From Chitinophagaceae bacterium (GTDB lineage Bacteria > Bacteroidota > Bacteroidia > Chitinophagales > Chitinophagaceae), in assembly GCA_020847395.1 (NCBI GenBank), contig JADLCD010000020.1, positions 1 through 64,000 of the forward strand: DNA of 64,000 nucleotides. Reading direction: 5' to 3'. Every line of letters begins with the position of its first letter. The first letter of the stretch is position 1. This document shows positions 10,098 to 62,846 of this stretch, piece after piece. The notes under the pieces are model-generated. The model saw only the letters and a program-made list of their open reading frames with translations, was not told the DNA's origin and ran no database searches. The translations under genes were made by a program, and so were the position numbers.

Positions 10098-10438
10098 TTG
10101 GCTGATTTAGGTAAATTATTGTTCGGTTTATTAGGGTAGCATGCAAAATAGTAACTGTTCTCAACTGAGCATAAAAAATACATATTATACTCATGAAATA
10201 ACAGGGATAGTGGTGATAAAGCTACGGTTATCCCGGAATGTTGATGGGTACAACATTTTTTAGGGCTAATTGGTAATTTGAGCTGCTGAAGAAGCAGTCT
10301 CATTCATAATTTAAGGTTGAGATTGCTTCTCCCGCCAGAATATTCATTCATCTCATATCTTCATGCGGGCGGGATCGCAAAGACGAAAAAGAGGTTGCGC
10401 AACACTCAATGCCCAATGCCCAATGCTGACAGCACTAT
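10098..10438. other. Intergenic leader of the phosphohydrolase operon
   Basis: This 341-bp spacer should carry the operon promoter on the minus strand, but no full TTG-N20-TAnnTTTG match was found and no Pho box could be recognised. It contains an imperfect 12-bp inverted repeat (10291-10302 with 10318-10329, one mismatch) that may end transcription of the LuxE-like gene, a TCTCCCGCCA segment at 10328 that recurs near 22985, and a short heptad array listed separately. Confidence 0.5.
10404..10431. repeat. Heptad array, 4 units
   Basis: Four tandem 7-mers of the type GCCCAAT/ACTCAAT/GCTGACA. Read on the minus strand they fit the RGYNNNN pattern of the other arrays in this window. It sits just beyond the stop codon of the LuxE-like gene. 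Confidence 0.6.
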
Positions 10439-11446
10439 TCATATAGCCAACAGGCTGCAGCCGCGCATATCGCTATTATCTATTCTTCCCAATATTTCAA
10501 AACTGCCATCATTATATAGTGTACCTGCATCTTCAGTAGCTATAAAACTGCAGGAATATATATTGGCAAGATCAATAACATTTATAGCGCCTCTTGTTTT
10601 GTTTGATGGAGAAGTGAATATATGCAGCGGGTCTTCTTCATCGCGGATCAGTATCTTCATCCACGGCGGAGTGTAAAATATTCCATCGCCTTTTGAATAG
10701 GCCTGTGAAAGCAGTTCCGTCATTCCGTATTCCGAATGAATATGTGGAACATTAAAAGCTTGCTTCAACTCATTATGCACTTCCTGGCGTGTTATTTCTG
10801 TTCTTCTGCCTTTCATACCTCCCGTTTCCATTATACTGGTATATTGTAAAGGCAGGGGGCATTGTTCTGCAAAATCCAGTAAAGCAAATGTTACCCCTAT
10901 CAATAATGTTTTTTGTTTATTGTTTTCCAGGCTAATAAGTGTGTCAGCCAGTTTCTGTTGCTCATATAAATAAAAACCACTTTTGGGGTGACCGGATAAC
11001 CGGATCAATTCATCAACCATTACTACCAGTGAAGAATGTTGCCGCTCAAGATAGGAGGGAAGTAAACCGATAATACAATATGCCGAGGGGTCGCCATAAA
11101 ACTGTGCAAACCCTTTGCAGAAACTTTTCGTATATATATCCGGTTCTTTTATATAGTGCCTGCTTGGGGTTGTTTGCGTGGTACCGCTGCTTTCAAAAAT
11201 CAGCTTAGCATCAAAATCAGTTGTTTTAACCTGCTGTGTTTTAAAAAGCTGAATTGGTAAAAAAGGAATAGCGTTAATATTGTTTATTGTTTCCGGGTGC
11301 GGATTGGTTAATGAAACAAACTGCCTGTAAGTACTGTTGTGTTCATACTGAAACCGGAAGACTTCCAACGCAACCTTTTCAAATGCTGAAATGTTAAAAT
11401 CAAATAAACCCTGTGCTATGTCGTTATATGATGAAATTTTATTCAA
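10439..11446 (-). CDS. LuxE/acyl-protein synthetase-like protein
   Basis: A 335-residue protein of the LuxE acyl-protein synthetase family, related to adenylate-forming ligases. The motif ESSGTTQTTPSRHYI (near residue 88) is the family's phosphate-binding loop, followed by GLLPSYLERQHSSLV near 128 and HSEYGMTELLSQAY near 240. In bioluminescent bacteria LuxE activates fatty acids, but there are no other lux genes here; orphan copies in Bacteroidota are thought to activate an acyl or aryl acid for an unknown acceptor. Only a TTG at 11446 can serve as start, because a stop precedes it in frame and no ATG is near. It is divergent from a lipoprotein gene 36 bp away. Confidence 0.82.
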   Translation of the reverse strand: MNKISSYNDIAQGLFDFNISAFEKVALEVFRFQYEHNSTYRQFVSLTNPHPETINNINAIPFLPIQLFKTQQVKTTDFDAKLIFESSGTTQTTPSRHYIKEPDIYTKSFCKGFAQFYGDPSAYCIIGLLPSYLERQHSSLVVMVDELIRLSGHPKSGFYLYEQQKLADTLISLENNKQKTLLIGVTFALLDFAEQCPLPLQYTSIMETGGMKGRRTEITRQEVHNELKQAFNVPHIHSEYGMTELLSQAYSKGDGIFYTPPWMKILIRDEEDPLHIFTSPSNKTRGAINVIDLANIYSCSFIATEDAGTLYNDGSFEILGRIDNSDMRGCSLLAI

Positions 11447-11482
11447 CCGGAATATTTACATTTGTTTATTGAATACGGTGTT

Positions 11483-11953
11483 ATGAAAATAAGGATAGCC
11501 ATCATTTTGTTGATTGTAATAGTTGTTTCCTGCGGCAAAGATACATTCAATAGTAAACCTTTGCTTAAACTGAAAGAAACAAGTGGTGATTATGTGCCTC
11601 TCGGAGATAACTATGGCGTTCAGTTTACTTTAGAATATACAGATGCTGAAGGTGATATTGCGGGCGTTCCTATCTACCTTCAAAAACTTTCTTCTTCCGC
11701 CCCCTGTGCCGATAACACCAAAGATCCTACCTATTTAGATAGCAGCTATACTTTGCCAACTGATGTACCGGCAAGTGCAAATCAAAAAGGAGATATTGTT
11801 ATAACTATTTCAGATTTATTACTTAACAGAATTGCCTGTGATCCTTTGGATACTCTTGAGGACGCCACCTTTAAATTTTGGTTTAAAGACCAGGCAGGCA
11901 ATGTGAGCGATACAGTTACTTCTCCTGTTATTAAAATAGAAAAGCAGCCTTAA
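11483..11953 (+). CDS. Small lipoprotein, unknown function
   Basis: A 156-residue predicted lipoprotein. The N-terminus (MKIRIAIILLIVIVVSCGK) is a type II signal peptide with a VSCG lipobox, the acylated Cys being residue 17. The mature part is acidic and beta-rich, with phrases such as EYTDAEGDIAGVPIYL and WFKDQAGNVSDTV that resemble Ig-like or cadherin-like surface domains. No enzyme motif is visible. The ATG at 11483 was preferred over an upstream start at 11462 because it opens the signal peptide. It was probably placed in the outer membrane or periplasm; function is unknown. Confidence 0.8.
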   Translation: MKIRIAIILLIVIVVSCGKDTFNSKPLLKLKETSGDYVPLGDNYGVQFTLEYTDAEGDIAGVPIYLQKLSSSAPCADNTKDPTYLDSSYTLPTDVPASANQKGDIVITISDLLLNRIACDPLDTLEDATFKFWFKDQAGNVSDTVTSPVIKIEKQP

Positions 11954-12066
11954 CATCATTTCTATGTAGAACTTTGAATTTTAGTTCTACTATCTTCACA
12001 TTCATTTCTAATTCTCTTATTATTTTAATTCTTTTAACCGTAACAATAATTTGTATGGGTTTTCGC

Positions 12067-12074
12067 TACATTTG
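12067..12074 (+). promoter_or_regulatory. Bacteroidota -7 element before M42 peptidase
   Basis: TACATTTG fits the Bacteroidota -7 consensus TAnnTTTG and lies 20 bp upstream of the ATG at 12094. A matching -33 TTG at the usual distance is not evident. Confidence 0.5.
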
Positions 12075-12093
12075 AAGTTATAATTCAATATGC

Positions 12094-13203
12094 ATGGCTA
12101 AGAAATCAAAAGAAAAGCTGCAATCAATTTTAAAAGACAGTTCCCATACATTTCTCAAAAATTACCTCAATAATCCTTCGCCTGTGGGCTTTGAAAGCAG
12201 CGGGCAGAAAATATGGCTTGATTATATTAAACCTTATATTGACAGCAGTTATGTTGATCCTTATGGTACAGCGGTAGGCATTATAAATCCTGATGAACCA
12301 TTTAAAGTAGTTATTGAAGCACATGCTGATGAGATAAGCTGGTTTGTAAATTATATAACCGGCGAGGGGCTTATTTACCTGAAGCGTAATGGCGGAGTAG
12401 ATCACCAGATTGCACCTGCAAAACGTGTAATCATTCATGGAAAAAAAGGCCTGGTAAAAGCTGTTTTCGGGTGGCCTGCTATACATACGCGTATAGGTGG
12501 AGGCGATAAAGAAACCCAGCCTAAAGTGGAAAATCTTTTTTTAGATACCGGCGCGAGAAGCAAAAAAGAAGTGGAAGATCTTGGAATACATATCGGCTCG
12601 GTAGTTACATATGAAGAAGGTTTTGATGAATTAGCATATGGCTATTATATTGGCCGTGCAATGGATAACCGCATTGGCGGATTTATGATTGCAGAAGTGG
12701 CGCGTTTGCTGAAAGAAAATAAAAAGAAACTTCCTTTCGGGTTATATGTAGTGAATGCCGTGCAGGAAGAAATTGGTTTGCGTGGCGCTGAAATGATAGC
12801 AAGACGTATTAAGCCTGACTTGGCTATAATTACAGATGTTACACATGATACCACCACGCCAATGATCAACAAAATTATAGAGGGTGATATAGCCTGTGGT
12901 AAAGGACCATCGCTGGCATATGCGCCTGCAGTGCATAATAAATTATTACAGTTGGTGCAGGATGTTGCAGAAAAAAATAAAATACCTGTTCAGCTCAGAA
13001 CATTAAGCCGCAGTACGGGTACTGACACCGATTCATTTGCTTATGCTAATGATGGTTGCCCGTCTGTACTTATTTCTATTCCACTGCGATACATGCATAC
13101 AACCGTTGAAATGCTGCATAAGAATGATGTTGAAAATACCATTAAGCTGATGTATGAAACGGTGTTGTCATTATCACCTAAAACAAAACTCAGTTATATT
13201 TAA
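12094..13203 (+). CDS. M42 family metallopeptidase
   Basis: A 369-residue cytoplasmic aminopeptidase of family M42 (glutamyl aminopeptidase/FrvX/endoglucanase M type). Metal-site motifs appear in order: EAHADE near residue 76, MDNRIGGF near 188, the Glu pair in VQEEIGLRGAE near 227, TDVTHD near 248 and the late His in RYMHTTVEML near 334. M42 enzymes form large tetrahedral dodecamers and remove N-terminal residues from peptides. There is no signal peptide and length is normal. The downstream microprotein starts 2 bp after the stop, which suggests readthrough transcription into the following module. Confidence 0.93.
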   Translation: MAKKSKEKLQSILKDSSHTFLKNYLNNPSPVGFESSGQKIWLDYIKPYIDSSYVDPYGTAVGIINPDEPFKVVIEAHADEISWFVNYITGEGLIYLKRNGGVDHQIAPAKRVIIHGKKGLVKAVFGWPAIHTRIGGGDKETQPKVENLFLDTGARSKKEVEDLGIHIGSVVTYEEGFDELAYGYYIGRAMDNRIGGFMIAEVARLLKENKKKLPFGLYVVNAVQEEIGLRGAEMIARRIKPDLAIITDVTHDTTTPMINKIIEGDIACGKGPSLAYAPAVHNKLLQLVQDVAEKNKIPVQLRTLSRSTGTDTDSFAYANDGCPSVLISIPLRYMHTTVEMLHKNDVENTIKLMYETVLSLSPKTKLSYI

Positions 13204-13205
13204 CC

Positions 13206-13379
13206 GTGCTGAATAACCTTTTATATATTGATCCGGGAAGCGGGAGTTACCTTGTGCAGGTAATTGCAGCGGCTGTGCTTGGTGTTGCATTTTATTTTAA
13301 AACTTTTGTTGCCTGGATCAAATCTCTTTTCCGTAGAAAAAGAAATGCTTCCGGCGAGGAGGAGCAAAAACATGAATAG
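13206..13379 (+). CDS. 57-aa membrane microprotein (DPGSGS type)
   Basis: A short gene starting at GTG 13206, 2 bp after the M42 stop, and ending at TAG 13377-13379. It encodes an LLYIDPGSGSYLVQ motif, one transmembrane helix (about residues 17-35) and a basic tail with RRKRN, then an acidic end EEEQKHE. Its last 8 bases overlap the start of the next gene. The conserved-looking IDPGSG motif directly before a membrane helix, and its placement upstream of a methyltransferase and a sulfatase-like gene, match small proteins I recall from other bacteria in similar settings. Function is unknown; a scaffold or anchor for the neighbouring enzymes is inference. Confidence 0.75.
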   Translation: MLNNLLYIDPGSGSYLVQVIAAAVLGVAFYFKTFVAWIKSLFRRKRNASGEEEQKHE

Positions 13380-14742
13380 CTATACCGTACATCCTTCTTC
13401 CTACCGCGACGCTGCCGGTTTTATATTTGAATATGAGGGAAAGATTTACAGGCAGGTGAATAAAGTTTATTCTGATAATTATACACTGTTACATTCCTCT
13501 GGTTTATATACGGCATTAGTAAAATCAGGAAAGCTTATAACCCACGAAGCAATACAGGAAAACATTACATGCAGTAATGATTGGTATATAACTTTATTAC
13601 CACAACAACTGGCTTTTATTTCGTATCCATACGAATGGTGTTTTGATGAATTGAAAGACGCAGCATTGCTTACGCTTAATATTTTGCGAACATCGCTGGA
13701 TCATGGAATGATATTAAAAGATGCTTCACCATTCAATATTCAATTTGCAGATGGTAAACCTGTTTTTATTGATACACTTTCTTTTGAAAAGTATGATACA
13801 ACAAAGCCCTGGATTGCATACCGGCAGTTTGTGGAATGTTTCGTTGTGCCTCTCGTACTTTCATCGTATACCTCAACGGATTTTATAAAACAATTACAGC
13901 TAAACCCGGATGGTATATCAACTGCTTTTGCAGCTAAAGTGCTTCCTTTTACATGCAGGTTCAGGCTATCTCTTTTGCTGCATATATATTTACCCAATGC
14001 GGTTAAAGGCTCACAACAAAGCAAACCTGCAGTTAACACTTCGTTCTCCAAACAAAAATTGATTAATATAATTTCCAGTTTTACATCACTTATACATTCG
14101 CTTAAGCCGGCTAAGGCGCAATCTGCATGGCGTAATTATTATGAAGAAACTATTTTAAGCAATACCTACCTGGAGGAGAAATTATTGCTTGTAAAAAATT
14201 GGATAAAGGAAGTAGATGCTGATACTGCTATTGACATTGGAACCAATACCGGTATATTCGCGATTGCAGCGGCGGAAAGATTTAAACAGGTTATCGCAAT
14301 AGACAATGATGACCGTTGTGTAAATGACTTATATCTTAAATGTAAGGCAGAAACAATAAAAAATATCCTGCCGCTTTGTGTGGATATCGCTAATCCTACG
14401 CCTGCAATTGGTTGGGCTAATAAAGAACGGGAAGCATTTTTATCAAGACCCGGGGCAGATTTGATTATTGCTTTGGCAGTAATACATCATCTTATAATAG
14501 GAAGAAATATAAGTATGCCCCAGGTTGCAGCATTGTTCAGGCAGATGGGCAAATATATAATCGTTGAATTTGTTCCTAAATCTGATTCTAAAGTTTTGGA
14601 AATGATAAAAAACCGGGAAGATATTTTTTATGATTATAATGAGGAAGGGTTTGAACGAAGTTTTGAGGTTTATTTTAACATCATCCGTAAGCAAAAAATT
14701 AACGGAACAGACCGGGTACTTTTTCTTATGAAAAAAAGATAA
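13372..14742 (+). CDS. Kinase-like plus SAM methyltransferase protein
   Basis: A 456-residue protein. The N-terminal half looks like a degenerate kinase: DHGMILKDASPFNIQF near residue 105 resembles the HGD..P.N catalytic loop, and PVFIDTLSFE near 124 resembles the following DFG-like Asp. The C-terminal part (about 280-456) is a class I SAM-dependent methyltransferase, with motif I AIDIGTNTGIFAIAAAE near 286, an acidic strand end AIDND near 308 and LIIALAVIHHL near 364. The ATG at 13372 overlaps the microprotein stop; a longer frame from 13264 would run through that gene and is unlikely. Substrate is unknown. The overlap and the 4-bp gap to the next gene argue for a joint function. Confidence 0.8.
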   Translation: MNSYTVHPSSYRDAAGFIFEYEGKIYRQVNKVYSDNYTLLHSSGLYTALVKSGKLITHEAIQENITCSNDWYITLLPQQLAFISYPYEWCFDELKDAALLTLNILRTSLDHGMILKDASPFNIQFADGKPVFIDTLSFEKYDTTKPWIAYRQFVECFVVPLVLSSYTSTDFIKQLQLNPDGISTAFAAKVLPFTCRFRLSLLLHIYLPNAVKGSQQSKPAVNTSFSKQKLINIISSFTSLIHSLKPAKAQSAWRNYYEETILSNTYLEEKLLLVKNWIKEVDADTAIDIGTNTGIFAIAAAERFKQVIAIDNDDRCVNDLYLKCKAETIKNILPLCVDIANPTPAIGWANKEREAFLSRPGADLIIALAVIHHLIIGRNISMPQVAALFRQMGKYIIVEFVPKSDSKVLEMIKNREDIFYDYNEEGFERSFEVYFNIIRKQKINGTDRVLFLMKKR

Positions 14743-14746
14743 TAGA

Positions 14747-16291
14747 ATGGGTACAGTTGATTTGCATAAAATAAAGCATTGGCTTCAAACTAAACCCTTA
14801 CATCTTTTTCTGCTGCCGGTATTTTTCATAGTAAATATATATGTACAATATGCAGGGTTGGTAAGTGCAAAAAGTTCAATGGTAATCTTTAGCGGAATTG
14901 CAACTTTTATGCTTCTTCTTTTTTTTGGGTTAAATTATTTTCTGAATAATAAAATAAAGTCGGGTTTAATTACTACTCTTACCGGTATATTGGTATTATA
15001 TACCGGAGATATTAAATCCGGATCTTCGTTGATTTCTGGTTTGCATTTTCTTGAGCATTACCGGTATTTTCTTCCGTTGATTATGCTGCTTTTCTTTTTT
15101 GTTGTATTTAGTATTTATCGTTCAAAAAAAAATCAATTATTTAATTTATACCTGAATGTACTTTTTGTTTTTTATACAATTTTGGCAATAGCGAAGCTTG
15201 GGGCTTTTATAAATGAAACACGTGAGTTTTCGGAGGAACAGAAAGCACAAACAACCCAGGCGAAAGATATGCTGGCAACAGGCAATATTGATAAAAATAA
15301 AATGCCTGATATATTTTTTATAATGCCTGATTGCTATCCTTCAACTTCATACCAGTATGAAATTCTTCAGCAGGATAATAGTTATTTTGATAGTGCGCTT
15401 ATTTCAAGAGGATTTTTTGTAGTATCGGGATCGAGGAGCAATTTTAATCGTACTACTTTTTCCATACCATCAACTATTGATATGAATTACCTGCATTTTA
15501 TTGATACTTCTTTTACTTATCCTGCTATTGAATATTCTAAGGCTTTGGCAATTGCAAAAAAGGCAAGCTTGTTTACTTTTTTAAAAAAGTATAATTATAA
15601 AACCATCAATCTTTCTATTTTCAATCTTGAAGATGCACCTGCATTTACAAAGGAAAATTTTATACGATCATCAGAAGAGGGTATTATCCTCAATAATACC
15701 ATTATAGGCTGCTTTAAAAGAGATTTTTTATGGAGATTAACTGAACCAGCCGCTGCTTTGCCTGGTTATTTGAATAATGAAGCAATTGAACATTTGAAAG
15801 GTTATGAAAAGCATAATGGCAAAGTAATCGATTCTCTTCAATCTATTTTAAATACCACTCAGCGCGATTCAGTTCCGAAAATAATATACCTGCATTTATA
15901 CATGCCACATTACCCATACTTTAATGATTCAGCCGGCAACAGATACCCGGACAGCGATGTTTTTAAAAGAGGAGGAGATGTTGATAAACAAAGATTTGCA
16001 GGTTATATAAAATACACAAACCAAAAACTTTTAAATATTGTAGATAACATATTAAAAAATGTAAAAAGAGAAACTGCAATAGTATTACAAAGCGATCATG
16101 GCTTTGATGATATAGATACATCAAGGCCAAATGATGCTTTCAGAAATTATAAGGCAATTTATTTTAGCGATAAAAATTATACTATGCTTTATGATAGTAT
16201 GAGTAATGTAAATACATTCAGGGTGCTGTTAAACAAATATTTTAATCAACATTTACCTATATTGCCAGATTCAAGCTTCTATATAAAATAG
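14747..16291 (+). CDS. Membrane sulfatase-like hydrolase/transferase
   Basis: A 514-residue integral membrane protein. About five hydrophobic helices fill residues 15-160 (for example FLLPVFFIVNIYV, VIFSGIATFMLLLFFGL and YFLPLIMLLFFFVVFSI). The rest is an extracytoplasmic alkaline-phosphatase/sulfatase fold: PDIFFIMPDCYPS near residue 186, probable nucleophile Thr in NRTTFSIPS near 243, HLYMPHYPYF near 385 and QSDHGFDD near 449. The layout is like lipoteichoic-acid synthase and phosphoethanolamine transferases, which move or remove a phosphate-linked group on envelope glycans or lipids. It is the last gene of the microprotein/methyltransferase module. Confidence 0.83.
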   Translation: MGTVDLHKIKHWLQTKPLHLFLLPVFFIVNIYVQYAGLVSAKSSMVIFSGIATFMLLLFFGLNYFLNNKIKSGLITTLTGILVLYTGDIKSGSSLISGLHFLEHYRYFLPLIMLLFFFVVFSIYRSKKNQLFNLYLNVLFVFYTILAIAKLGAFINETREFSEEQKAQTTQAKDMLATGNIDKNKMPDIFFIMPDCYPSTSYQYEILQQDNSYFDSALISRGFFVVSGSRSNFNRTTFSIPSTIDMNYLHFIDTSFTYPAIEYSKALAIAKKASLFTFLKKYNYKTINLSIFNLEDAPAFTKENFIRSSEEGIILNNTIIGCFKRDFLWRLTEPAAALPGYLNNEAIEHLKGYEKHNGKVIDSLQSILNTTQRDSVPKIIYLHLYMPHYPYFNDSAGNRYPDSDVFKRGGDVDKQRFAGYIKYTNQKLLNIVDNILKNVKRETAIVLQSDHGFDDIDTSRPNDAFRNYKAIYFSDKNYTMLYDSMSNVNTFRVLLNKYFNQHLPILPDSSFYIK

Positions 16292-16312
16292 AAATTCAAT
16301 AATTTGTTATTT

Positions 16313-16729: not shown

Positions 16730-16732
16730 ACA

Positions 16733-17734: not shown

Positions 17735-17765
17735 AATAAAATCAGAGCCATAAATATAATGCTTT

Positions 17766-30749: not shown

Positions 30750-30761
30750 GTGGAGTATTAG

Positions 30762-30880
30762 TAGTAAAGTGGTAAGATAGTAAAGTGGTAAGATAATAAG
30801 ATAGTAAAGTGGTAAGTTTTACCAAACCTGCAACCTGAAACTTGTAACCTGCAACCTAACTTGTAACCTGCAACCTGCAA
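30762..30880. repeat. Composite array: 8-bp block plus 7-bp block
   Basis: From 30762 to about 30816 octamers alternate between AGTAAAGT and GGTAAGAT. From 30827 to 30880 heptads CCTGCAA, CCTGAAA and CTTGTAA follow (minus strand RGTTNNN). It fills the gap between the UlaG-like and MetE-like genes and would be transcribed within the operon. Confidence 0.85.
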
Positions 30881-30888
30881 CAGACTTT

Positions 30889-33640: not shown

Positions 33641-33810
33641 GCGGTTAGCTGTGGGCTTTGGGCTGTCAGCTACGAGAGCCGTAAGCAGTGCGGACTGTTT
33701 GTCGATAATCAATGGTCAATAGTCAATAATCGATCACCAATAATCAATTGCTGATGCTGATAGTTAACTCATGGCTCAAAGCCCAAAGCCCAAAGCTCAT
33801 AGCTCACCGC
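33641..33810. repeat. Large nested heptad inverted array
   Basis: Left arm 33641-33671 (units such as AGCTGTG, GGCTTTG) and right arm 33774-33810 (GCCCAAA, GCTCATA) are complementary and both have a 7-bp period. The centre (about 33702-33748) holds a second dialect: GGTCAAT, AGTCAAT, AATCGAT. It fills the space between ROK and SDR genes. Confidence 0.85.
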
Positions 33811-33813
33811 TCT

Positions 33814-37091: not shown

Positions 37092-38435
37092 ATGAGAAAA
37101 CCACTATTAGTTCTTTTAGCTGCTATTATGCTTGGTTCTGTTGTTGCCCAGGAAAATAGCATCAAAAATCCTTACAAAAAAAGACCAGCTTTCGGTTTCG
37201 CTTTTACATTTCATGATTTTCAAACTGCGCAAGATTTAAAAAACACATCCCTTAACCAGGTTTTAAAAGATAAGCAATGGTACAAAACAGGAAGAATGAG
37301 CCCTGGTTTGGCATTGTCTTATTTCCAGGGTCTTACTGATCATTTAGACTTTATGGCCCGTTTAGGTGGTACCTTTACCAGCTATCCTGTTCCTGATAAA
37401 GCTCAAACCGGTAATGATAAATTACTTGCTGAACTTGATGCGAATATCAATGCAAAATTACTCAGTGATAAATATTGGGTATCCCCTTACTTAACTGCCG
37501 GTATTGGCGGTTCACAATGGAGTGGTTACTGGGGTGCTTATGTACCATTAGGCGTTGGTTTGCAGGTAAACCTGCTCGACCAGGCTTATATTAACTTTAA
37601 TGCCCAGTACCGCGTTTCGGTTACTTCTGCAACTACAGCCAATCATTTGTTTTACAGCTTTGGTGTAGCCGGTTCATTATTCGAGAAAAAAGAACCGAAA
37701 GTTATTCCTCCTCCTCCGCCACCTGCTGATACGGATAATGATGGTATTGTTGATTCAATTGATGCATGCCCTGCGGTTGCAGGCCTTGCACAGTTCAACG
37801 GCTGTCCTGATACAGATGGTGATGGCATAGCTGATAAAGATGATAAATGCCCTGATGTAAAAGGTTTGGCAAAATACAATGGTTGCCCGATACCTGATAC
37901 AGATGGTGATGGTATAAACGATGAAGAAGATAAATGTCCTAACCAGGCTGGCGTGGCAAAATACAATGGTTGCCCGATACCTGATACAGATGGCGATGGT
38001 GTAAATGATGAAGAAGACAAATGCCCGGCACTTGCAGGACCTGCAAGCAACCAGGGTTGTCCTGAAATTAAGGAAGAAGTGAAGAAGCGCATAGATGTTG
38101 CTGCCAAGAATGTATTCTTTGCAACAGGTAGCGCTAAACTTTTAGCAAAATCAAACAAATCATTGAATGAAGTTGCAAAAATTCTTTCTGAAGATCCAAA
38201 CCTGAAACTTGATATTGAAGGTCATACTGATAATACCGGTAAGCCTGATAAAAACCAGTTGTTGAGTGAAGCAAGAGCAAAGGCTGTACTTGATTATCTT
38301 ACTACCAAGGGTGGTATTGATGCTAGCCGCCTTACTTCTGCAGGTTTTGGACAGGATCAGCCAGTTGCAGATAATAAAACTGCTGCCGGTCGCGCTAAAA
38401 ACCGCCGCGTTGATTTAAAATTGCACTATAATTAA
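37092..38435 (+). CDS. OmpA-like protein with TSP3 repeats
   Basis: A 447-residue outer-membrane protein. A signal peptide (about 1-19) precedes a beta-barrel-like domain (about 25-205). A PPPPPP linker leads into four thrombospondin type 3 calcium-binding repeats (about 215-325; DTDGDGINDEEDKCP and variants). The OmpA peptidoglycan-binding domain (about 330-447) contains FATGSAKL, IEGHTDNTGKPDKNQLLSEARA and RAKNRRVDLKL. The protein anchors the outer membrane to the wall. Two of the repeats are nearly identical at DNA level with an 87-bp period (37868 and 37955), a sign of recent duplication. Strong promoter upstream and terminator downstream suggest high expression. Confidence 0.95.
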   Translation: MRKPLLVLLAAIMLGSVVAQENSIKNPYKKRPAFGFAFTFHDFQTAQDLKNTSLNQVLKDKQWYKTGRMSPGLALSYFQGLTDHLDFMARLGGTFTSYPVPDKAQTGNDKLLAELDANINAKLLSDKYWVSPYLTAGIGGSQWSGYWGAYVPLGVGLQVNLLDQAYINFNAQYRVSVTSATTANHLFYSFGVAGSLFEKKEPKVIPPPPPPADTDNDGIVDSIDACPAVAGLAQFNGCPDTDGDGIADKDDKCPDVKGLAKYNGCPIPDTDGDGINDEEDKCPNQAGVAKYNGCPIPDTDGDGVNDEEDKCPALAGPASNQGCPEIKEEVKKRIDVAAKNVFFATGSAKLLAKSNKSLNEVAKILSEDPNLKLDIEGHTDNTGKPDKNQLLSEARAKAVLDYLTTKGGIDASRLTSAGFGQDQPVADNKTAAGRAKNRRVDLKLHYN

Positions 38436-39178: not shown

Positions 39179-39226
39179 AGCTGTCAGCTATCAGCTATCG
39201 GCGGTCAGCTTTCAGCCATTCGCTGT
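39179..39226. repeat. Heptad array, RGCTNNN dialect
   Basis: About seven tandem 7-mers (AGCTGTC, AGCTATC, GGCGGTC, AGCTTTC) in the 305-bp spacer between the divergent Dps and subtilase genes. The remainder of that spacer shows no recognisable promoter or gene. Confidence 0.75.
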
Positions 39227-40907: not shown

Positions 40908-40925
40908 TAAGTAGAGATATAAGTG

Positions 40926-41003
40926 TTGCAGGTTTCAGGTTGCAGGTTACAGGTTTCAGGTTGCAGGTTTCAGGTTGTGCCTTGCAACCTGAAACCTGTA
41001 ACC
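40926..41003. repeat. Heptad hairpin array, RGGTTNNN dialect
   Basis: Left arm 40926-40976 (AGGTTTC, AGGTTGC, AGGTTAC repeated seven times) and right arm 40982-41003 (complementary AACCTGA, AACCTGT). Lies between the convergent subtilase and DUF58 genes. Confidence 0.88.
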
Positions 41004-51821: not shown

Positions 51822-51851
51822 GCTTTAAGAGTCTTGTTAATAATTGGGTGT

Positions 51852-51974
51852 TTCTGGTTTGGGGTTTGTAGTTTATAGTTTGAAGTTTCAGGTTACAAGT
51901 TCCCGGTTAGCATTTCGCGAATGTTTTCTAACTACTAACCATAAACCATAAACTTCAAACCATAAACTATAAAT
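51852..51974. repeat. Heptad hairpin array, AGTTTNN dialect
   Basis: Left arm: eight gapless heptads from 51856 to 51911 (GGTTTGG, AGTTTAT, AGTTTGA, GGTTACA and others). Right arm from about 51930 to 51974 carries the complementary set (AACCATA, AACTTCA, AACTATA). It fills the gap between metY and metX inside the operon. Confidence 0.9.
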
Positions 51975-53754: not shown

Positions 53755-53797
53755 TTAATATATTATTGAAGTGGTATAATATCAGCTGGTCTTCTGA

Positions 53798-53913
53798 CTT
53801 ATCTGTCACGCCTTAGCGTGATGGAGTTGGCACCTTTCCCCATACCGCATGTAGCGGCACGGAACAGGTTGTCAAGGCTTCATTGGGCCAGTCCCTCAGC
53901 CTTTCTTGATAAG
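53798..53913 (-). promoter_or_regulatory. SAM-I riboswitch aptamer
   Basis: The minus strand reads through every conserved SAM-I element: P1 5' strand CTTATCAAGA, GAGGGACTGGCCC and TGAAGCC with GACAACC, then AAGGTGCCAACTCC, and P1 3' strand GATAAG. The aptamer binds S-adenosylmethionine and shuts off the metY-metX-hom operon through the terminator just downstream. Confidence 0.96.
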
Positions 53914-53933
53914 CGATTTTTAAAGAACTGGCG

Positions 53934-54014: not shown

Positions 54015-54115
54015 TCCACCAGTTTAGTAGAATAATAAAAATTCGCTTTGATGGGGAAATGAGCGACCATGTATCTGCCACCAGCTTTGGGCCTTAAAGA
54101 AAGCAGGCACCTGGT

Positions 54116-54151
54116 GGCTGATACCTGAAAGCTAATAGCTGACAGCTAATA
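54116..54151. repeat. Heptad array, AGCTNNN dialect
   Basis: Five tandem units (GGCTGAT, ACCTGAA, AGCTAAT, AGCTGAC, AGCTAAT) ending 25 bp before the cysH start. Confidence 0.75.
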
Positions 54152-54175: not shown

Positions 54176-54910
54176 ATGACTCAGACGGATCCACAAAGCG
54201 AAATTCAACGAATTTCACAATTAACACAAAGTGCTGACATTGCTCAGAACCTGCGCTATATTGCGGCGCAATATCCTGGTGAAGTAATTTTTTCTACCAG
54301 TTTCAGTTGGGAAGACCAGGCAATTGCTCATATCATATTCAGTGAAAACCTGGATATACAGGTGTTTACTTTAGATACCGGCCGTATGTTTCCTGAAACC
54401 TATTCTACCTGGAGCCGCACGCTGGAAAAATACAATCAGCCTATTACTGCATACTATCCTGACGCCCTTTTATTACAAAAATTTATTGCTGAAAAAGGGC
54501 CCAACAGCTTTTATGAATCTGTAGAGAACCGCAAACAATGCTGTCATATACGTAAAGTAGAACCTTTGCAAAGAGCATTGAAAGGAAAGAAAGTATGGAT
54601 CACCGGCATACGTGCAGAGCATTCACCTAATCGTCATGACATGACGCAGGTAGAATGGGATGGTTCCAATAATGTAGTAAAGTATCACCCGATTTTGCAT
54701 TGGACAATGGATGAAACGATTGCTTTCGTCAATAAAAATAATATTCCTTACAACCCTTTGCATGAAAAAGGATTTGTAAGTATAGGATGCGCACCCTGCA
54801 CAAGAGCTATCCGCCCCGGCGAAGATTTCAGAGCCGGAAGATGGTGGTGGGAAGATGCATCGAAAAAGGAGTGTGGTTTGCATGTGCATGAAGAAGTTAA
54901 AAGTTTATAG
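54176..54910 (+). CDS. cysH: APS/PAPS reductase, iron-sulfur type
   Basis: A 244-residue assimilatory adenylyl-sulfate reductase. Cys pairs at residues 122-123 (RKQCCHIRKVEPL) and 205/208 (SIGCAPCTRAI) form the [4Fe-4S] site that marks the APS-reducing type, and the catalytic Cys is 233 in KECGLHVHEE. The PP-loop fold opens with IFSTSFSWEDQAIAH near 38, then FTLDTGRMFPETY near 64. It reduces APS to sulfite and AMP with thioredoxin; no APS kinase gene is seen in the operon, which agrees with direct use of APS. First gene of the cys operon. Its stop codon (TAG 54908-54910) falls inside a heptad array. Confidence 0.95.
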   Translation: MTQTDPQSEIQRISQLTQSADIAQNLRYIAAQYPGEVIFSTSFSWEDQAIAHIIFSENLDIQVFTLDTGRMFPETYSTWSRTLEKYNQPITAYYPDALLLQKFIAEKGPNSFYESVENRKQCCHIRKVEPLQRALKGKKVWITGIRAEHSPNRHDMTQVEWDGSNNVVKYHPILHWTMDETIAFVNKNNIPYNPLHEKGFVSIGCAPCTRAIRPGEDFRAGRWWWEDASKKECGLHVHEEVKSL

Positions 54911-54961
54911 TTTACAGTTTATAGTTTGCGGTTTTCAAAACCATAAACCTCAAACTCCAAA
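54901..54961. repeat. Heptad hairpin array overlapping cysH stop
   Basis: Left arm 54901-54931 (AGTTTAT, AGTTTAC, AGTTTGC) includes the last codons and stop of cysH; right arm 54937-54961 is complementary (CATAAAC, CTCAAAC). It fills the cysH-cysD junction. Confidence 0.88.
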
Positions 54962-55881: not shown

Positions 55882-55886
55882 ATAGG

Positions 55887-55947
55887 AGTTCCAGGTTGCA
55901 GGTTACAAGTTGCACAACTTGAAACTTGAAACCTGGAACTTGCAACC
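55887..55947. repeat. Heptad hairpin array, AGGTTNN dialect
   Basis: AGTTCCAGGTTGCAGGTTAC-type units on the left arm (55887-55912) pair with complementary AACTTGA and AACCTGG units on the right (55915-55947). Cys operon junction between cysD and cysN. Confidence 0.88.
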
Positions 55948-55970
55948 AAAAACTTATAATTAAATTAATA

Positions 55971-57215: not shown

Positions 57216-57231
57216 AAGGTTGAAGGTAGAA

Positions 57232-57333
57232 AAAGTTGCAGGTTACAGGTTTCAGGTATTCAAACTAAAAACCTGTAAACAAAATGTAAGCCGTAACCTG
57301 CAACTTGTAACCTGAAACCTGCAACCTGCAACC
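57232..57333. repeat. Heptad hairpin array, AGGTTNN dialect
   Basis: Left arm about 57239-57264 (GCAGGTTACAGGTTTCAGG-like) and right arm about 57289-57333 (AACCTGC, AACTTGT, AACCTGA). Occupies the cysN-cysE gap. Confidence 0.88.
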
Positions 57334-57359
57334 ATGCATCCACCATATACCTTAAAACA

Positions 57360-58169
57360 TTGGCACAAAATAAATTCATACAACAACTGGCAGAAAGAAA
57401 GAAAAAAACCTTTCTGACTTTTCCTGACAGGGAACTGGCAAAGCTTTTTATTGATGATTTATTTGCTTTGCTTTTTTTGCCGGCTACGTTGCGCCAGCAA
57501 AATACTTACGAGCTCGAAAAAGCTTTCGAATCTTTGAAGAGCCATTTGTCAACATTGATATATGAAGTATTGCGTGATGGCAAAGCAGCACAAAAAGCCG
57601 CGGATGATTTTTTTGAGGGACTTCCTGGTGTATATAATACTTTACTGAAAGACGCGGAAGCTATATTAAAATTTGATCCTGCCGCAGCATCAGTAGAAGA
57701 AGTGATTGTTGCTTACCCCGGGTTTTTCGCAACTGCCGTATACAGGTTCTCCAACCAGTTGTGGAAACAGGAAATAAGCATTTTGCCAAGATTGCTTACC
57801 GAATATGCACACAGCAAAACAGGTGTTGATATTCATCCCGGCGCAAGCATCGGTGAATCATTTTTTATAGATCACGGAACGGGTATTGTAATTGGGGAGA
57901 CTACCGTAATTGGTAAAAACGTAAAGATATACCAGGGCGTTACTATCGGTGCTTTAAGCGCTTCCCGCGAAAAGGCCATAGGTAAAAGGCACCCGACTAT
58001 TGAAGATAATGTGATCATATATTCCGGCGCTACTATTCTGGGCGGTGAAACAGTTATTGGCAAAAACAGTGTGATCGGCGGTAATGTCTGGTTAACAAAT
58101 AGTGTTCCGGCAAATGTGATGGTAGAACACAAGAGTGATATCACTCAAAAAGAAAAAAAGACAGCTTAG
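57360..58169 (+). CDS. cysE: Serine O-acetyltransferase
   Basis: A 269-residue serine acetyltransferase with the long N-terminal helical region of the EpsC/Bacteroidota type. It transfers acetyl from acetyl-CoA to serine for cysteine synthesis. The left-handed beta-helix (about 150-250) is marked by GVDIHPGASIGESFFIDHGTG, VVIGETTVIGKNVKIYQGV and PTIEDNVIIYSGATILGG; the catalytic His/Asp pair lies in FIDHGTGIV. The only plausible start is TTG 57360, because the nearest upstream ATG (57334) is out of frame. The cysK partner is not in the window. Confidence 0.92.
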   Translation: MAQNKFIQQLAERKKKTFLTFPDRELAKLFIDDLFALLFLPATLRQQNTYELEKAFESLKSHLSTLIYEVLRDGKAAQKAADDFFEGLPGVYNTLLKDAEAILKFDPAAASVEEVIVAYPGFFATAVYRFSNQLWKQEISILPRLLTEYAHSKTGVDIHPGASIGESFFIDHGTGIVIGETTVIGKNVKIYQGVTIGALSASREKAIGKRHPTIEDNVIIYSGATILGGETVIGKNSVIGGNVWLTNSVPANVMVEHKSDITQKEKKTA

Positions 58170-58191
58170 CAATAAACCTTTCAATGGAATT

Positions 58192-59040
58192 ATGCAAGAA
58201 CTAACTAATATACGGGGAAAAGTGATACTGGCAGCGGCCGGTCCCGGCGATCCTGAGCTGATAACGGTAAAGGCTACGCGCTGGTTACAAAAAGTTGATG
58301 TTGTATTAACAGACAGGCTGGTGAGTAATGATATTCTTACATTGTATGTAAATCCTTCTGCTGAAATTATATATGTAGGCAAACAATGCCGCAAAGGAAA
58401 TTCCACACCGCAGGAAACCATCAATGAATTAATGTGTACGCATGCACTTAGTGGAAAATTAGTAGTGCGTTTAAAAGGTGGTGATGTGTCTATCTTCTCC
58501 AATATACTGGATGAACTGCAGGTATTGAAAGAGAACAATATCGCTTATGAAATAGTTCCTGGTGTTACTGCTGCGCTTGGCGCTGCCGCATATGCAGGCA
58601 TTCCATTAACAGCACGTGGCTATTCAACTGCGGTAAGGTTGATGACTTATTATAAAAGTGATATTGTGCCGGATGATTACTGGAAGGAGTTGGCATCTAC
58701 AAAAGATACACTTGTATTTTATATGTCTGCTGAAACAGTAGAAGGTATCGTATCTAAATTGATCCGCAACGGTGTAAGCAAGGATACTTTTATTGCTGTG
58801 ATTGAGCAGGCAACAACACCGCTGCAACAGGTGCATGCAGTAAATATATATGACTTTGAAAAAATACAGGATACCCCGTTTCTTTCTCCGTCATTGGTAA
58901 TTGTGGGCAGGGTTGCAGCGCTGCACAATGAATTTGCATGGCTGGGAAACAGTGAAGAAAGAGCGCATTATTTTAAACCTGTAGCAACTATTCCGAACAA
59001 TTTAAACAATAATAAGAAAGCCAATGTTAGCAGAGCATAG
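58192..59040 (+). CDS. cobA: Uroporphyrinogen-III C-methyltransferase
   Basis: A 282-residue SAM-dependent methyltransferase (SUMT) that makes precorrin-2, the siroheme precursor needed by sulfite reductase. Landmarks: VILAAAGPGDPELITVKA near residue 11, LTDRLVSNDIL near 38, YVGKQCRKGNSTPQETIN near 61, VRLKGGDVSIFSN near 91 and PGVTAALGAAAYAGIPLTARGYS near 125. The ATG at 58192 gives the normal N-terminus; a longer frame from 58135 overlaps cysE. It overlaps cysJ by 17 bp. Confidence 0.94.
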   Translation: MQELTNIRGKVILAAAGPGDPELITVKATRWLQKVDVVLTDRLVSNDILTLYVNPSAEIIYVGKQCRKGNSTPQETINELMCTHALSGKLVVRLKGGDVSIFSNILDELQVLKENNIAYEIVPGVTAALGAAAYAGIPLTARGYSTAVRLMTYYKSDIVPDDYWKELASTKDTLVFYMSAETVEGIVSKLIRNGVSKDTFIAVIEQATTPLQQVHAVNIYDFEKIQDTPFLSPSLVIVGRVAALHNEFAWLGNSEERAHYFKPVATIPNNLNNNKKANVSRA

Positions 59041-60733
59041 ACTAAAAGCTTTTCAGGAGCTGGTAACACAATCATCCCGCGAGGAGCTGATATGGATGAA
59101 TGGTTTTTTAGCAGGACTGGTATCCGCTGAAGAAAAAGCTGCCGGGGCAGGAAATGCTGCAACACCAGTGTCAACAGTTGCTCGGGTAAACAAAATATCT
59201 GTTTTGTTTGGAACAGAAACCGGTAATTCCAAAAAGGTAGCTACTGAATTTGCTGCACAGGCAAAAAAACAGGGTATCAATGTTAAACTTACTTCGCTTG
59301 ATCAATATCGTGTGAATGATTTGTCTAAAGAAGAATATGCCTTCCTGGTGATCAGCACACAGGGCGATGGCGAACCGCCGGCTACAGCTAAAAAATTTTA
59401 TGATCATATTCACCAGCAGAATATTGCACTTGATAAAATGAAATTCAGTGTGCTGGCATTGGGTGATAGTTCCTATCCGTTGTTTTGCAAAGCCGGTGAA
59501 GACGTGGATGGACAGCTGATTAGATTAGGTGCTAAACGTATTGTGCCTTTACAAAAATGCGATACGGATTATGCGGAAGATGCAGCCTTCTGGTTCAGCA
59601 ATGTAATGAAGGCATTGAGCGAAGGCGGAGCCGGCACTGCTGTATCGCCTGTGGTAGCCAAGCCTGCTAAAGGAAAGAAAAATCATACCGGTACTATACT
59701 GGCTAATGTCAATCTTAACGATCGTGATTCAAATAAACAAACGCATCATATAGAAATTGCTATAGAAGATGACGTTTATTATGAGCCAGGCGATTCAATC
59801 GGGTTTATTCCTCATAATAAAAAAGAAACAGTTGATGCTATACTGGCTTTAACAGGTACAGATGGAGATACTGCTATTGAATTCAGGAAAGAGAAATATA
59901 CCATAGCGGAAGCGCTTGCTAAAAAAATCTGCATAGTTCACTTACCTGAAAGGGTAGTAAGGCAATATGCAGCAATTACGCAGCAGGAAATTCCTGATAC
60001 AAGAATTGATTTGCTCGACTTGCTAAGAATTTATCCTGTAAAAGATGCGGCACAATTTGAGCAGGTGTTGCATATTCTTGAGCCTGTAGCGCCACGATTG
60101 TATTCTATCTCATCTTCGCTGCAGGCACATAGTGGCGAAGTACATATTACTGTTGCAAGAGACAGGTTTACTGTAAATAATGAAGTGAAATACGGGCAAT
60201 GCTCAGATTTTCTTTCACAACTGGCAGTTGATTCAACGGTTGATTTTTACGTGCACAAAAACAGCCAGTTTAAATTACCTGCGCCTGATAAAGATGTGAT
60301 CATGATTGGTCCGGGCACCGGCGTTGCCCCTTTCCGCTCTTTTATAGCAGAAAGAGATGCGGTAGCAGCAACAGGGCGCAACTGGCTTTTCTTCGGGGAT
60401 CAGAAATTTACTGCTGATTTTTTATACCAAACAGAAATTCAAAACTGGGCTGATACCGGGGTGCTGTCAAGAGTTAATCTTGCTTTTTCGCGGGATCAAA
60501 GATCCAAGTTATATGTGCAGCATAAAATGCTTGAACAGGCAGCGGAATTGTGGAACTGGATTGAAGGTGGAAGCTATATCTATATATGTGGCGCAAAGGC
60601 GCCAATGAGTGTGGATGTAGAAAATACTTTACTGCAGATCATTGAACGATACGGCGGTAAATCTGTTGGTGAAGCAGTAGTATTTCTTGATCATTTAAAA
60701 GAGCAGGGAAGGTTTTTGCTGGATGTGTATTAG
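59024..60733 (+). CDS. cysJ: Sulfite reductase flavoprotein subunit
   Basis: A 569-residue NADPH-cytochrome P450 reductase-type diflavin protein. After a short N-terminal helical extension (about 1-60) comes the flavodoxin domain (SVLFGTETGNSKKVATEF near 62, TQGDGEPPATAKKFYDH near 112), then the FAD domain (RLYSISSSLQAHSGEVHITV near 360) and the NADPH domain (MIGPGTGVAPFRSFIAERD near 427, ending FLLDVY). It delivers electrons from NADPH to CysI. The reading frame starts inside the cobA end (17-bp overlap), suggesting translational coupling. Confidence 0.94.
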   Translation: MLAEHRLKAFQELVTQSSREELIWMNGFLAGLVSAEEKAAGAGNAATPVSTVARVNKISVLFGTETGNSKKVATEFAAQAKKQGINVKLTSLDQYRVNDLSKEEYAFLVISTQGDGEPPATAKKFYDHIHQQNIALDKMKFSVLALGDSSYPLFCKAGEDVDGQLIRLGAKRIVPLQKCDTDYAEDAAFWFSNVMKALSEGGAGTAVSPVVAKPAKGKKNHTGTILANVNLNDRDSNKQTHHIEIAIEDDVYYEPGDSIGFIPHNKKETVDAILALTGTDGDTAIEFRKEKYTIAEALAKKICIVHLPERVVRQYAAITQQEIPDTRIDLLDLLRIYPVKDAAQFEQVLHILEPVAPRLYSISSSLQAHSGEVHITVARDRFTVNNEVKYGQCSDFLSQLAVDSTVDFYVHKNSQFKLPAPDKDVIMIGPGTGVAPFRSFIAERDAVAATGRNWLFFGDQKFTADFLYQTEIQNWADTGVLSRVNLAFSRDQRSKLYVQHKMLEQAAELWNWIEGGSYIYICGAKAPMSVDVENTLLQIIERYGGKSVGEAVVFLDHLKEQGRFLLDVY

Positions 60734-60828
60734 GATTTGAAATTTGATATTTCAAATTTGAAATATCAAGATTTACCGAATATCCGGCATTTTATTAATA
60801 TCAAATTTCAAATCTCCAATTTCAAATA
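60734..60828. repeat. AT-rich inverted array, TTTGAAAT dialect
   Basis: Repeated blocks of ATTTGAAAT, GATATTTCAAA and the complementary AAATTTCAAAT, forming a long potential hairpin. It fills the cysJ-cysI gap right up to 4 bp before the cysI start. Confidence 0.8.
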
Positions 60829-60832
60829 ACTT

Positions 60833-62500
60833 ATGTCTGAAAAAAACAACCTGTCGTCAACCGAGCACATTAAAATGAAAAGTGACGGTTTACGGGGTAC
60901 TTTGAAAGAAAGCTTGAAAGATGAAATAACCGGTGCTATCCGTGAAGATGACCGGGCGCTGGTGAAATTTCATGGAATGTACCAGCAGGATGATCGTGAC
61001 AGGAGGGAAGAACGTAGTGCAAAAAAACTGGAGTGGTTATATTCTTTTATGATCCGCCTGCGTATACCCGGAGGTTTTATTACTTCGGAACAATGGGAAG
61101 CTTTGCATCATATTGCCGGGGCACATACAACCGGTGTAATTAAAATTACGACCAGGCAAACGGTACAGTTACATGGTATTTTGAAATCGCACGTAAAGCC
61201 AACTATACAGGCATTTAATACGGCAAAATTAGATTCCATATCCGCCTGTGGCGACGTAAACAGGAATGTAGTATGTGCGGCTCATCCTAAATTTTCTGCC
61301 CTGCACGAAGAAATATTTGAATATTCTCATAAGCTAAGCCAGTTGGCAAAGCCCAAAACAAAAGCTTATTATGAAGTGTGGTTAGATGAAAAACCACTTG
61401 GAGATAGAGAAGCGGAGGAAGATCCTTTATACCAGGACAGGTATTTACCGCGTAAATTCAAAATAGGCATTGCTATTCCGCCTACCAATGATGTAGATGT
61501 ATTTGCCAATGATTGCGGGTTGATAGCCATTGAAGAAAACGGGAAACTGGCAGGGTTTAATATACTTGCCGGTGGAGGAATGGGTGCAACACATGGCAAC
61601 GCCGCAACTTATCCAAGATTGGGAACTGTGCTTGGTTTTGTACCCGCCGGGGAAAAAGTATACAAGGCAGTATACGAAATGATTACAGTACAGCGCGACT
61701 ATGGTAACCGCAGCGACAGAAAATTATCCCGGCTTAAATATACACTTGATAACATGGGTGTTGAAGCCTTTAAAGCGGAACTGGAAAAACGTTGCGGATT
61801 TACACTGGAACCTGAACGTTCGTACAAATTTACCGGCAGAACTGATTTTTACGGGTGGCATAAAAATCATGAAGACAAATGGTATTATACCGCGTTTATT
61901 GAAAATGGCAGGGTTCATGATGATGAAGCATTGCCATTAAAAACTGCGTTTCTTGAAATAGCGCTTTTACGGAAATGCAACTTCAGGTTTACCTGTAACC
62001 AGAATTTAATTGTAGCTGATGTAAGTGAAAAAGATAAAGCGGAGATACATGCCATTCTTGATAAGTATGGTATTATTAAAGAAACAGAACAAGCTACTCC
62101 TTTACGCAAAGAAGCTATTTCCTGTGTAGCTTTCAATACCTGTCCGCTTGCGCTTGCAGAAGCACAACGCTACCTGCCGGCATTGCTCAGTAAAATGGAG
62201 CCGATCATGCATAAGTATGGTCTTGATGATGATAATATCAGCGTACGCATGACCGGTTGCCCCAATGGTTGTGCAAGACCATATGCTGCTGAAATTGCTT
62301 TTATTGGTACCTCATACGGGCATTATAACCTGCAGATAGGAGGCGACAGGGAGGGAACAAGATTAAACAAATTGTATAAGGAAAGTTTAGGCGAAGAAGC
62401 TATTTTGAACGAACTTGACGGGCTGTTAAAAACATACAGCAAAGACCGTCAGCCGGAGGAAACTTTTGGTGATTTTGTAATGAGGGAGGGGTTGGTTTAA
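60833..62500 (+). CDS. cysI: Sulfite reductase hemoprotein subunit
   Basis: A 555-residue siroheme/[4Fe-4S] hemoprotein that reduces sulfite to sulfide by six electrons. Siroheme-binding basic segments: GVIKITTRQTVQLHG near residue 97 and GDVNRNVVCAAHPKF near 138. The four cluster-ligating Cys are split as expected: CVAFNTCPLALAEAQRYLP near 430 and MTGCPNGCARPY near 475, where the last Cys bridges to siroheme. Family length is normal. The stop at 62498-62500 is followed at once by a cytosine-free octamer array. Confidence 0.95.
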   Translation: MSEKNNLSSTEHIKMKSDGLRGTLKESLKDEITGAIREDDRALVKFHGMYQQDDRDRREERSAKKLEWLYSFMIRLRIPGGFITSEQWEALHHIAGAHTTGVIKITTRQTVQLHGILKSHVKPTIQAFNTAKLDSISACGDVNRNVVCAAHPKFSALHEEIFEYSHKLSQLAKPKTKAYYEVWLDEKPLGDREAEEDPLYQDRYLPRKFKIGIAIPPTNDVDVFANDCGLIAIEENGKLAGFNILAGGGMGATHGNAATYPRLGTVLGFVPAGEKVYKAVYEMITVQRDYGNRSDRKLSRLKYTLDNMGVEAFKAELEKRCGFTLEPERSYKFTGRTDFYGWHKNHEDKWYYTAFIENGRVHDDEALPLKTAFLEIALLRKCNFRFTCNQNLIVADVSEKDKAEIHAILDKYGIIKETEQATPLRKEAISCVAFNTCPLALAEAQRYLPALLSKMEPIMHKYGLDDDNISVRMTGCPNGCARPYAAEIAFIGTSYGHYNLQIGGDREGTRLNKLYKESLGEEAILNELDGLLKTYSKDRQPEETFGDFVMREGLV

Positions 62501-62502
62501 TT

Positions 62503-62702
62503 TGGGAATTTGGGAATTTGAAAATTTGAAAATGTGGGAATTTGAAAATGTGGGAATGTGAGAATGTGGGAATGTGAGAATGTGGGAATGTGAGAATGTG
62601 GGAATGTGAGAATGTGGGAATTTGAAAATGTGGGAATGTGAGAATGTGAGAATGTGGGAATGTGGGGATGTGGGAATGTGGGAATGTGGGAATGTGGGGA
62701 TG
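62503..62702. repeat. 25 gapless octamer repeats, TGRRRATK
   Basis: Twenty-five consecutive 8-bp units from 62503 to 62702, without insertion or deletion: TGGGAATT, TGAAAATT, TGAAAATG, TGGGAATG, TGAGAATG and TGGGGATG. Positions 3-5 vary only between G and A, and position 8 between G and T. The plus strand has no C from 62464 to 62708 (245 nt). There are no spacers, so it is not a CRISPR array. Confidence 0.95.
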
Positions 62703-62775
62703 TGGAAGCAAAAGTTTTAGATTTATTCAACAGATGATGGTAATATACACTTATATTTATTATAACTGAAGGCAG

Positions 62776-62846
62776 GTGACTGATAGCTATGAGCTCAGGG
62801 CTCACAGCCTACAGCCGATAGCCGATAGCTGACACCTGAAAGCTCA
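62776..62846. repeat. Heptad array abutting a start codon
   Basis: About nine heptads (AGCTATG, AGCTCAG, GGCTCAC, AGCCGAT, AGCTGAC and others) run directly into the ATG at 62847. No conventional ribosome site is seen between array and start. Confidence 0.8.

Follow-up and report, generated by a model that had tools for sequence, protein, structure and literature searches.

Facing arrays of seven-base repeats between genes in a Chitinophagaceae genome and its relatives

What leaves short tandem units, in many different sequences and often as two opposed arms, in the gaps between the genes of a single bacterial locus? The window, by which we mean the whole 64,000-nucleotide stretch that was analysed (G000:C20:1-64000), comes from a 5.17-Mb genome whose nearest named relatives are Chitinophagaceae MAGs, Terrimonas sp. 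NS-102 and Agriterribacter humi. Among long simple sequence repeats of 5-11 bp, heptanucleotides are the commonest class in most genomes (Mrazek et al. 2007, cited in PMC4679880 and PMC4692102), although those repeats are long and regular whereas the arrays described here are mostly degenerate. In Xanthomonas, GGGAATC or (GGGANTN)n heptads, in which unit positions 1-4 and 6 are conserved, form facing pairs, of which two genomes have 70 and 75, and the GGGGA(T/C)T heptad of Nostoc shows few such pairs (PMC4692102). TAACTGA direct repeats occur in Beggiatoaceae, cyanobacteria and five Bacteroidetes, mostly in one orientation and before start codons (PMC4679880). An earlier reading of the window (the original prediction) had suggested that such arrays were undescribed in Bacteroidota, which is too wide given the heptamer repeats in those five Bacteroidetes and the facing pairs in Xanthomonas. 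In the literature searched we found no description of multi-type facing arrays from Bacteroidota and, as far as those searches go, what is new is the occurrence of many unit types side by side, an orientation rule based on counts from many genomes, two arms that are independent of each other and the change of unit type at orthologous gaps.

Arrays in the window and their units

Thirteen named sites make up the starting material. They are given here by window coordinates, with no strand assigned.

10400..10426: three to four units of CAATGCC (G strand GGCATTG), directly after the palindromic GGTTGCGCAAC; reached by 0 of 1000 shuffles
30760..30881: facing pair, G arm with the 16-mer TAGTAAAGTGGTAAGA (8-bp step), C arm (AACCTGN)n
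33641..33812: arms of GGCTTTG/AGCTNTC and, inside, a GTCAATA part, together occupying the 201-bp gap between an SDR and a ROK gene
39179..39216: AGCTNTC array with divergent Dps-like and S8 peptidase genes on either side
40925..41003: facing pair (GTTNCAG)n / (TGNAACC)n with convergent genes on either side
51850..51973: facing pair GTTTNNR / YNNAAAC between metX-like and O-acetylhomoserine sulfhydrylase genes
54111..54147: weak GCTNANA array ahead of a PAPS-reductase-family gene; 6 of 1000 shuffles
54894..54961: facing pair AGTTTAT / AAACYNC, entering the preceding coding end; 20 of 1000 shuffles for the intergenic part
55888..55946: facing pair RGTTNCA / TGNAACY between cysD-like and cysN-like genes
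57235..57333: facing pair GGTTNCA / TGNAACC, 3' of the cysN-like gene
60735..60827: left arm ATTTGAA and right arm AATTTCA, ahead of the sulfite reductase gene
62499..62705: about 26 units of the 8-mer AATGTGGG/AATGTGAG, immediately 3' of the sulfite reductase stop codon
62785..62850: 7-mer array of GAGCTNT type

Arrays sit within what, from Pfam hits, we read as a sulfate-assimilation operon. The window also holds an 87-bp tandem repeat (2.5 copies, 37806-38026) within an ORF at 37092-38435.

The strict 7-bp (or 8-bp) step claimed for these sites is real. Identity at lag 7 in the intergenic DNA of the window is 0.324, compared with 0.279 in 200 Markov-1 resamples (z 8.1), so that shuffled DNA does not give the same peak; lags 14 (z 6.7) and 21 (z 6.4) likewise stand above the resamples, and coding DNA of the window has a lag-7 identity of 0.256. 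When each of the 13 sites was compared with 1000 shuffles of its own, none reached the site in 10 cases, two did so at 60.8 kb, six at 54.1 kb and 20 at 54.9 kb, where the array extends into the preceding gene and the test covered the intergenic part alone; 12 of the 13 sites were thus reached by at most six shuffles. As a control, 24 other intergenic regions of the window of at least 60 bp gave p<0.01 in one case and p<0.05 in two. At a segment score of at least 12 the step was seven at 11 sites and eight at two, and lags 5, 6, 9, 10 and 11 yielded no tract of that score at the 13 sites. Eight-base units make up part of the 30.8 kb site and the array at 62.5 kb. Lag-7 tracts are almost confined to non-genic DNA, with none in 160 kb of coding DNA of the genus and five in 912 kb from other Chitinophagaceae.

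CRISPR arrays consist of repeats of some tens of base pairs with unique spacers between them. The arrays here are built of 7- or 8-bp units joined head to tail and, as predicted, are not CRISPR. An Rfam scan placed no family on them, its sole match being a SAM riboswitch outside the arrays (RF00162, window 53796-53915, minus strand, 77.6 bits), upstream of the O-acetylhomoserine sulfhydrylase and metX-like genes.

Clustering bears out the prediction of a multi-type family and resolves at least nine unit types. The nine commonest clusters, read on the G strand, are ATTTGAR, GTTTRTR, TRGTSAA, GTTDCAR, GTDGTAA, NAGCTNT, AGGYRTA, GARTTAK and GTSARAY, and all except GTTDCAR span more than one of the genera clustered. 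The single RGYTNNN consensus first proposed fits GTTNCAR, AGCTNTC and RGTTTAT but does not describe ATTTGAR, TRGTSAA, AGGYRTA or GTDGTAA. Each unit combines several fixed columns with one or two free ones: across 117 arms (those of at least 28 nt with unequal G and C), 74% of unit differences fall in two of the seven columns, compared with 57% if they were scattered. The G strand of these arms is poor in C (8.7%), and the free base of GTTNCAR is A in 15 cases, T in 13, G in 13 and C in one.

Orientation, pairing and placement of the arms

In neighbouring arms of opposite sign, the left one is rich in G and poor in C and the right one rich in C, on whichever strand the region is read, with a ratio of 51:1. 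Among 257 distinct tract regions we counted 99 neighbouring arm pairs, comprising 51 with G left and C right, one reversed (in a 1.2-kb gap of G015), 18 with two C arms, seven with two G arms and 22 that include a neutral arm; these counts and the arm tests below exclude L050, of the species sampled as G014, L040 (G013) and 12 Weeksellaceae loci, and gene limits throughout are longest-ORF calls. The rule takes no account of gene direction, holding at convergent (4:0) and divergent (3:0) junctions, and for paired arms it is close to absolute. A search of 18 whole genomes with one unit type gave 67 facing matches at 45 loci in 10 of them and the reversed order in none; matches were counted genome-wide, intergenic or not, and five of the genomes had been picked for known presence of the unit. 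Within G000, one pattern had 105 matches and the same pattern read backwards had none. Lone arms are looser, since 101 obey the rule and 38 do not: the ratio is 67:13 for arms at most 15 nt from their closest gene edge and 30:21 for those further off, and of the more distant arms whose closest edge is a stop codon, six obey and 16 do not.

These properties place the arrays close to the heptads of Xanthomonas and Nostoc, with which they share a mostly intergenic seven-base step, a G strand by the 5' ORF whatever the direction of that ORF, overlap with stop codons and facing pairs (PMC4692102); in our arrays, lone arms follow less strictly. The make-up of fixed and free unit positions is also similar to that in Xanthomonas. 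However, the same source describes one unit of G-quadruplex type in each organism studied, whereas here there are at least nine types, mostly without G triplets, which differ at orthologous gaps; none of ten unit clusters corresponds to (GGGANTN)n or GGGGA(T/C)T with G-quadruplex potential.

The two arms of a region tend to share their unit type, though only modestly. For 37 arm pairs in which both arms have lag 7 and the gap is below 150, the mean unit distance between arms is 1.59, against 2.03 when right arms were permuted within genomes (27 pairs; 118 of 5000 permutations as low) and 2.15 between other regions of one genome. Arms lie within one position of each other in 17 of the 37 own pairs, 21 of 72 combinations from other regions of the same genome and 115 of 1332 others, and 20 of the 37 pairs differ at two or more unit positions. 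Beyond unit type we found no excess complementarity. In 20 pairs tested against swapped partners of the same type, own arms scored 14.50 and swapped arms 15.12, with the own arm higher in 10. Tests within a single type gave 11.44 for own and 11.48 for swapped arms at 18 loci of the genus (2751 of 5000 permutations reach the own value) and 12.61 and 12.20 at 18 G089 loci (819 of 5000), with seven loci of G173 and two of G185 excluded. Folded as RNA, five of six arrays beat their shuffles (z -4.2 to -7.3; the sixth, z -1.3), and since there is no base-level tuning past the unit type, these stems follow from the unit type itself. The opposed arms of the original prediction are therefore present and most of the folded arrays are better than chance, but the idea of stems kept by pairing is not supported. 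For the same reason, copying of one arm from its partner by foldback is rejected, as is the idea that inner units are younger than outer ones, the unit match being 0.672 for inner and 0.669 for outer units (n=51).

Arrays crowd against gene ends. In the 212 of 257 regions that span at most 400 bp with a gene on both sides, of 221 cases at stop codons, the array edge lies within 10 nt in 123 and the array enters the coding end in 56; the corresponding counts for start codons are 61 of 203 and six, and random placement would give 29%. It is possible to see the arrays as hairpins selected to end transcripts or to stabilise mRNA, with slippage providing only the raw material. The folding result and the proximity to stop codons speak for this account, as does the report that in Xanthomonas G4-forming heptad repeats coincide with transcript starts or stops more frequently than control repeats do (PMC4692102). 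We nevertheless regard it as unlikely. Swapped arms pair as well as own arms do, and a hairpin with its C arm on the left should fold equally well, yet this order is found in one of 52 pairs and in none of 18 genomes. Moreover, the arrays lack the combination of a G+C-rich stem and a following T tract that marks an intrinsic terminator: no T-rich tail was found beyond the C arms (0.318 compared with 0.305), and between 50 and 63 kb there are 13 terminator-like sites against 12.4 in shuffles, including one that overlaps the 54.1 kb array. A putative sulfate-assimilation operon has arrays inside it, and 174 of the 257 regions, neutral arms included, have a single arm.

Turnover and spread among relatives

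Comparison with relatives revealed the length and type variation that the original prediction expected at these junctions. At four junctions of the sulfate-assimilation cluster the unit type differs between relatives in the same gap. Before sulfite reductase the left arm is ATTTGAA in the window, AGCTNTC in L022 and GGTTNNN in L020 and L021, and an AATTTCA-like right arm adjoins the start codon in nine of 10 rows, being missing in L028. The AGTTTAT array ahead of cysD (54.9 kb) is kept with point changes in L022 and L023 and partly in L027, and L020 and L021 have the ATTTGAA type there; relatives bear other unit types in the cysD-cysN gap as well. The close relatives L020 and L021 differ in the cysH-cysD gap by the loss of one 7-bp unit and two A bases. 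At the SDR-ROK junction, in all eight readable relatives (L204, from G005, being unreadable there), the ROK start codon lies 23-29 nt past the (E/D)GQ codons of the SDR gene, and in G008 no stop intervenes. In G000 the gap is 201 bp and the SDR gene stops ahead of the (E/D)GQ codons, which this genome lacks; in our reading, an array of about 200 bp probably took the place of a short spacer and a gene end. The TAACTGA repeats resemble this picture in being intergenic heptamers with other heptamers alongside and with relatives that have shorter spacers and lack them, but they have one unit sequence, and no facing rule was found in the available description (PMC4679880). The TAACTGA unit is absent both from the arrays of the window and from the unit clusters.

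Arrays are plentiful in seven of the 11 genomes of the genus sample (G000-G010; G011 lies outside it), G000 included, and near chance in four. In the sampled stretches, lag-7 tracts number 35 in G000 (0.4 in shuffles), 25 in G003 (0.6), 30 in G014 (0.0), 22 in G015 (1.0) and 10 in G020 (0.4); lag 8 ranks second, with 11 tracts each in G015 and G020. Other members of the family gave none (G013, G017), one (G016), two (G012) or three (G019), the sample of G018 being too small for a count. The low-density genomes G001, G007, G009 and G010 together have one tract, against 0.6 in shuffles. Absence is not complete in three of them: a lower threshold with lag 8 included brings up five regions in G007 and one each in G009 and G010, and G009 bears one clear array at L200, outside the density sample.

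Heptad arrays are spread through the class, but the GTTNCAR unit does not stand out among them. The GTTNCAR pattern is found in 22 of 395 genomes of the class and its backwards-read control in 21, and outside G000 the two have 101 and 170 matches, so GTTNCAR is not special outside the genus and its class-wide spread as a particular unit is ruled out. Sharing of units across genera is moderate, with similarity of at least 0.75 in 13 of 3683 pairs compared with three when columns were permuted, and units of G000 and G015 at distance one or less are near chance. Within G000 units do recur, since 4.8% of 210 pairs are at distance 0 compared with 0.14% after permutation, although some of these pairs share one gap.

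Plain replication slippage on neutral intergenic DNA, with seven as a favoured slip length, was proposed for heptanucleotide repeats by Mrazek et al. (cited in PMC4679880 and PMC4692102). The 7-bp unit lost between L020 and L021 is what slippage would produce, as are the 14-bp higher-order units seen in G000 (for example at G000:C153) and the identity of adjacent free bases in 18 of 85 cases, and the near-confinement of tracts to DNA outside genes fits a neutral origin. By itself, however, slippage gives no 51:1 orientation and leaves the recurrence of the same unit within G000 unexplained, and we consider it improbable as the full account.

Still more doubtful, to our mind, are quasi-palindromic mobile elements moved in trans, with each unit type representing a family. 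Such elements would agree with the 105 forward and zero backward matches in G000, and a palindrome holds its facing order whichever way it is inserted. Against this, the longest block common to two loci is 29 bp in G000, which we judge to be within reach of unit type alone, conserved ends were not seen at the arrays, and the sole empty site, at the SDR-ROK junction, has lost flank sequence. Copying of long blocks between loci is likewise rejected, since shared blocks do not exceed 29 bp in G000 or 31 bp in G014, and the longer matches in G003 and G008 represent one place found twice.

Possible origins of the arrays

The best explanation, which we advance tentatively, is repeat synthesis on 3' ends that point into the gap. 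A recurrent process at the level of DNA would deposit units of seven, less often eight, bases on the strand whose 3' end points inward, possibly during the repair of a break or gap, with joining afterwards; synthesis, break and joining are all inferred. With a newly made strand that is poor in C, treatment of both ends would produce a G-rich left arm and a C-rich right arm. Free unit positions would be drawn independently in each arm, and arrays would persist where genes tolerate them, near and into stop codons, to be lost, extended or replaced. An orientation blind to gene direction, independent letters in the two arms, the loss of a gene end and the lack of terminator features point to a maker acting on DNA 3' ends rather than to selected hairpins, and the arrays resemble a regulatory signal less than they do the scars that repeat production would leave behind. 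On the other side of the balance, the genes examined (Ku and RVT_1) supplied no enzyme, the sharing of unit type between arms is modest, the predicted difference between inner and outer units failed and lone arms are looser.

Ku-dependent end joining is rejected as the driver. All seven Ku-positive genomes of the genus sample have arrays, with a density in intergenic DNA of 3.8 to 18.6 tracts per 10 kb, and the Ku-negative G001, G007, G009 and G010 are near chance; on a tree built from one gene, with 11 rows that include G011 but not G007, Ku absence needs at least two changes and does not form one clade. Outside the genus, however, Ku is neither necessary nor sufficient: five of 11 Ku-negative genomes have lag-7 tracts (L029, L068, L074, L076 and L078), and 21 of 28 Ku-positive genomes have none in the single stretch sampled from each. 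A reverse transcriptase is also rejected as driver, with no RVT_1 match in the array-rich G003, G006, G008 and G014, although divergent enzymes could escape such a search. Bacterial reverse transcriptases that produce tandem-repeat DNA exist, and by this analogy a divergent one may be the maker. DRT10, a telomerase-like enzyme, makes short tandem-repeat DNA, but with a 9-nt unit and protein-primed cDNA in the main system studied (PMC12632851, preprint), and the array-rich genomes here lack RVT_1.

A relative of the 3'-end reading, which we hold to be highly speculative, takes the arrays as fossil end-to-end fusions, in which C-poor repeats of seven or eight bases with one or two free positions would have capped 3' ends at breaks before the capped ends fused head to head, a geometry comparable to that of fused telomeres.

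Synthesis at inward-pointing 3' ends remains the reading that we prefer. The near-absolute rule for paired arms, blind to gene direction, agrees with that reported for a different heptamer in another phylum, and its occurrence in two phyla points to a shared bacterial form of repeat-making beyond slippage alone. The old puzzle of why the step is seven bases and why it is found in gaps can thereby be put to the test as a matter of DNA ends and of how they are repaired, and the rule also affects the interpretation of spacer evolution and of gene ends in Bacteroidota.

Several array centres have a GTTGTGC(C)(N)TGCAAC-like apex in common (window 40970-40990, G000:C60:13574 and G000:C126:30170). 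REP and REPIN elements pair a conserved palindrome with a REP-associated transposase. A REP-like recurrent palindrome, AAACCTATAAGGTTTGCCG...GGCAAACCTTATAGGTTT, lies in gaps of L120, L139 and L028, in L120 between heptad arms, and palindromes of the CCTGCCTGCCGGCAGG type are found inside or adjoining heptad arrays in L025 and L193.
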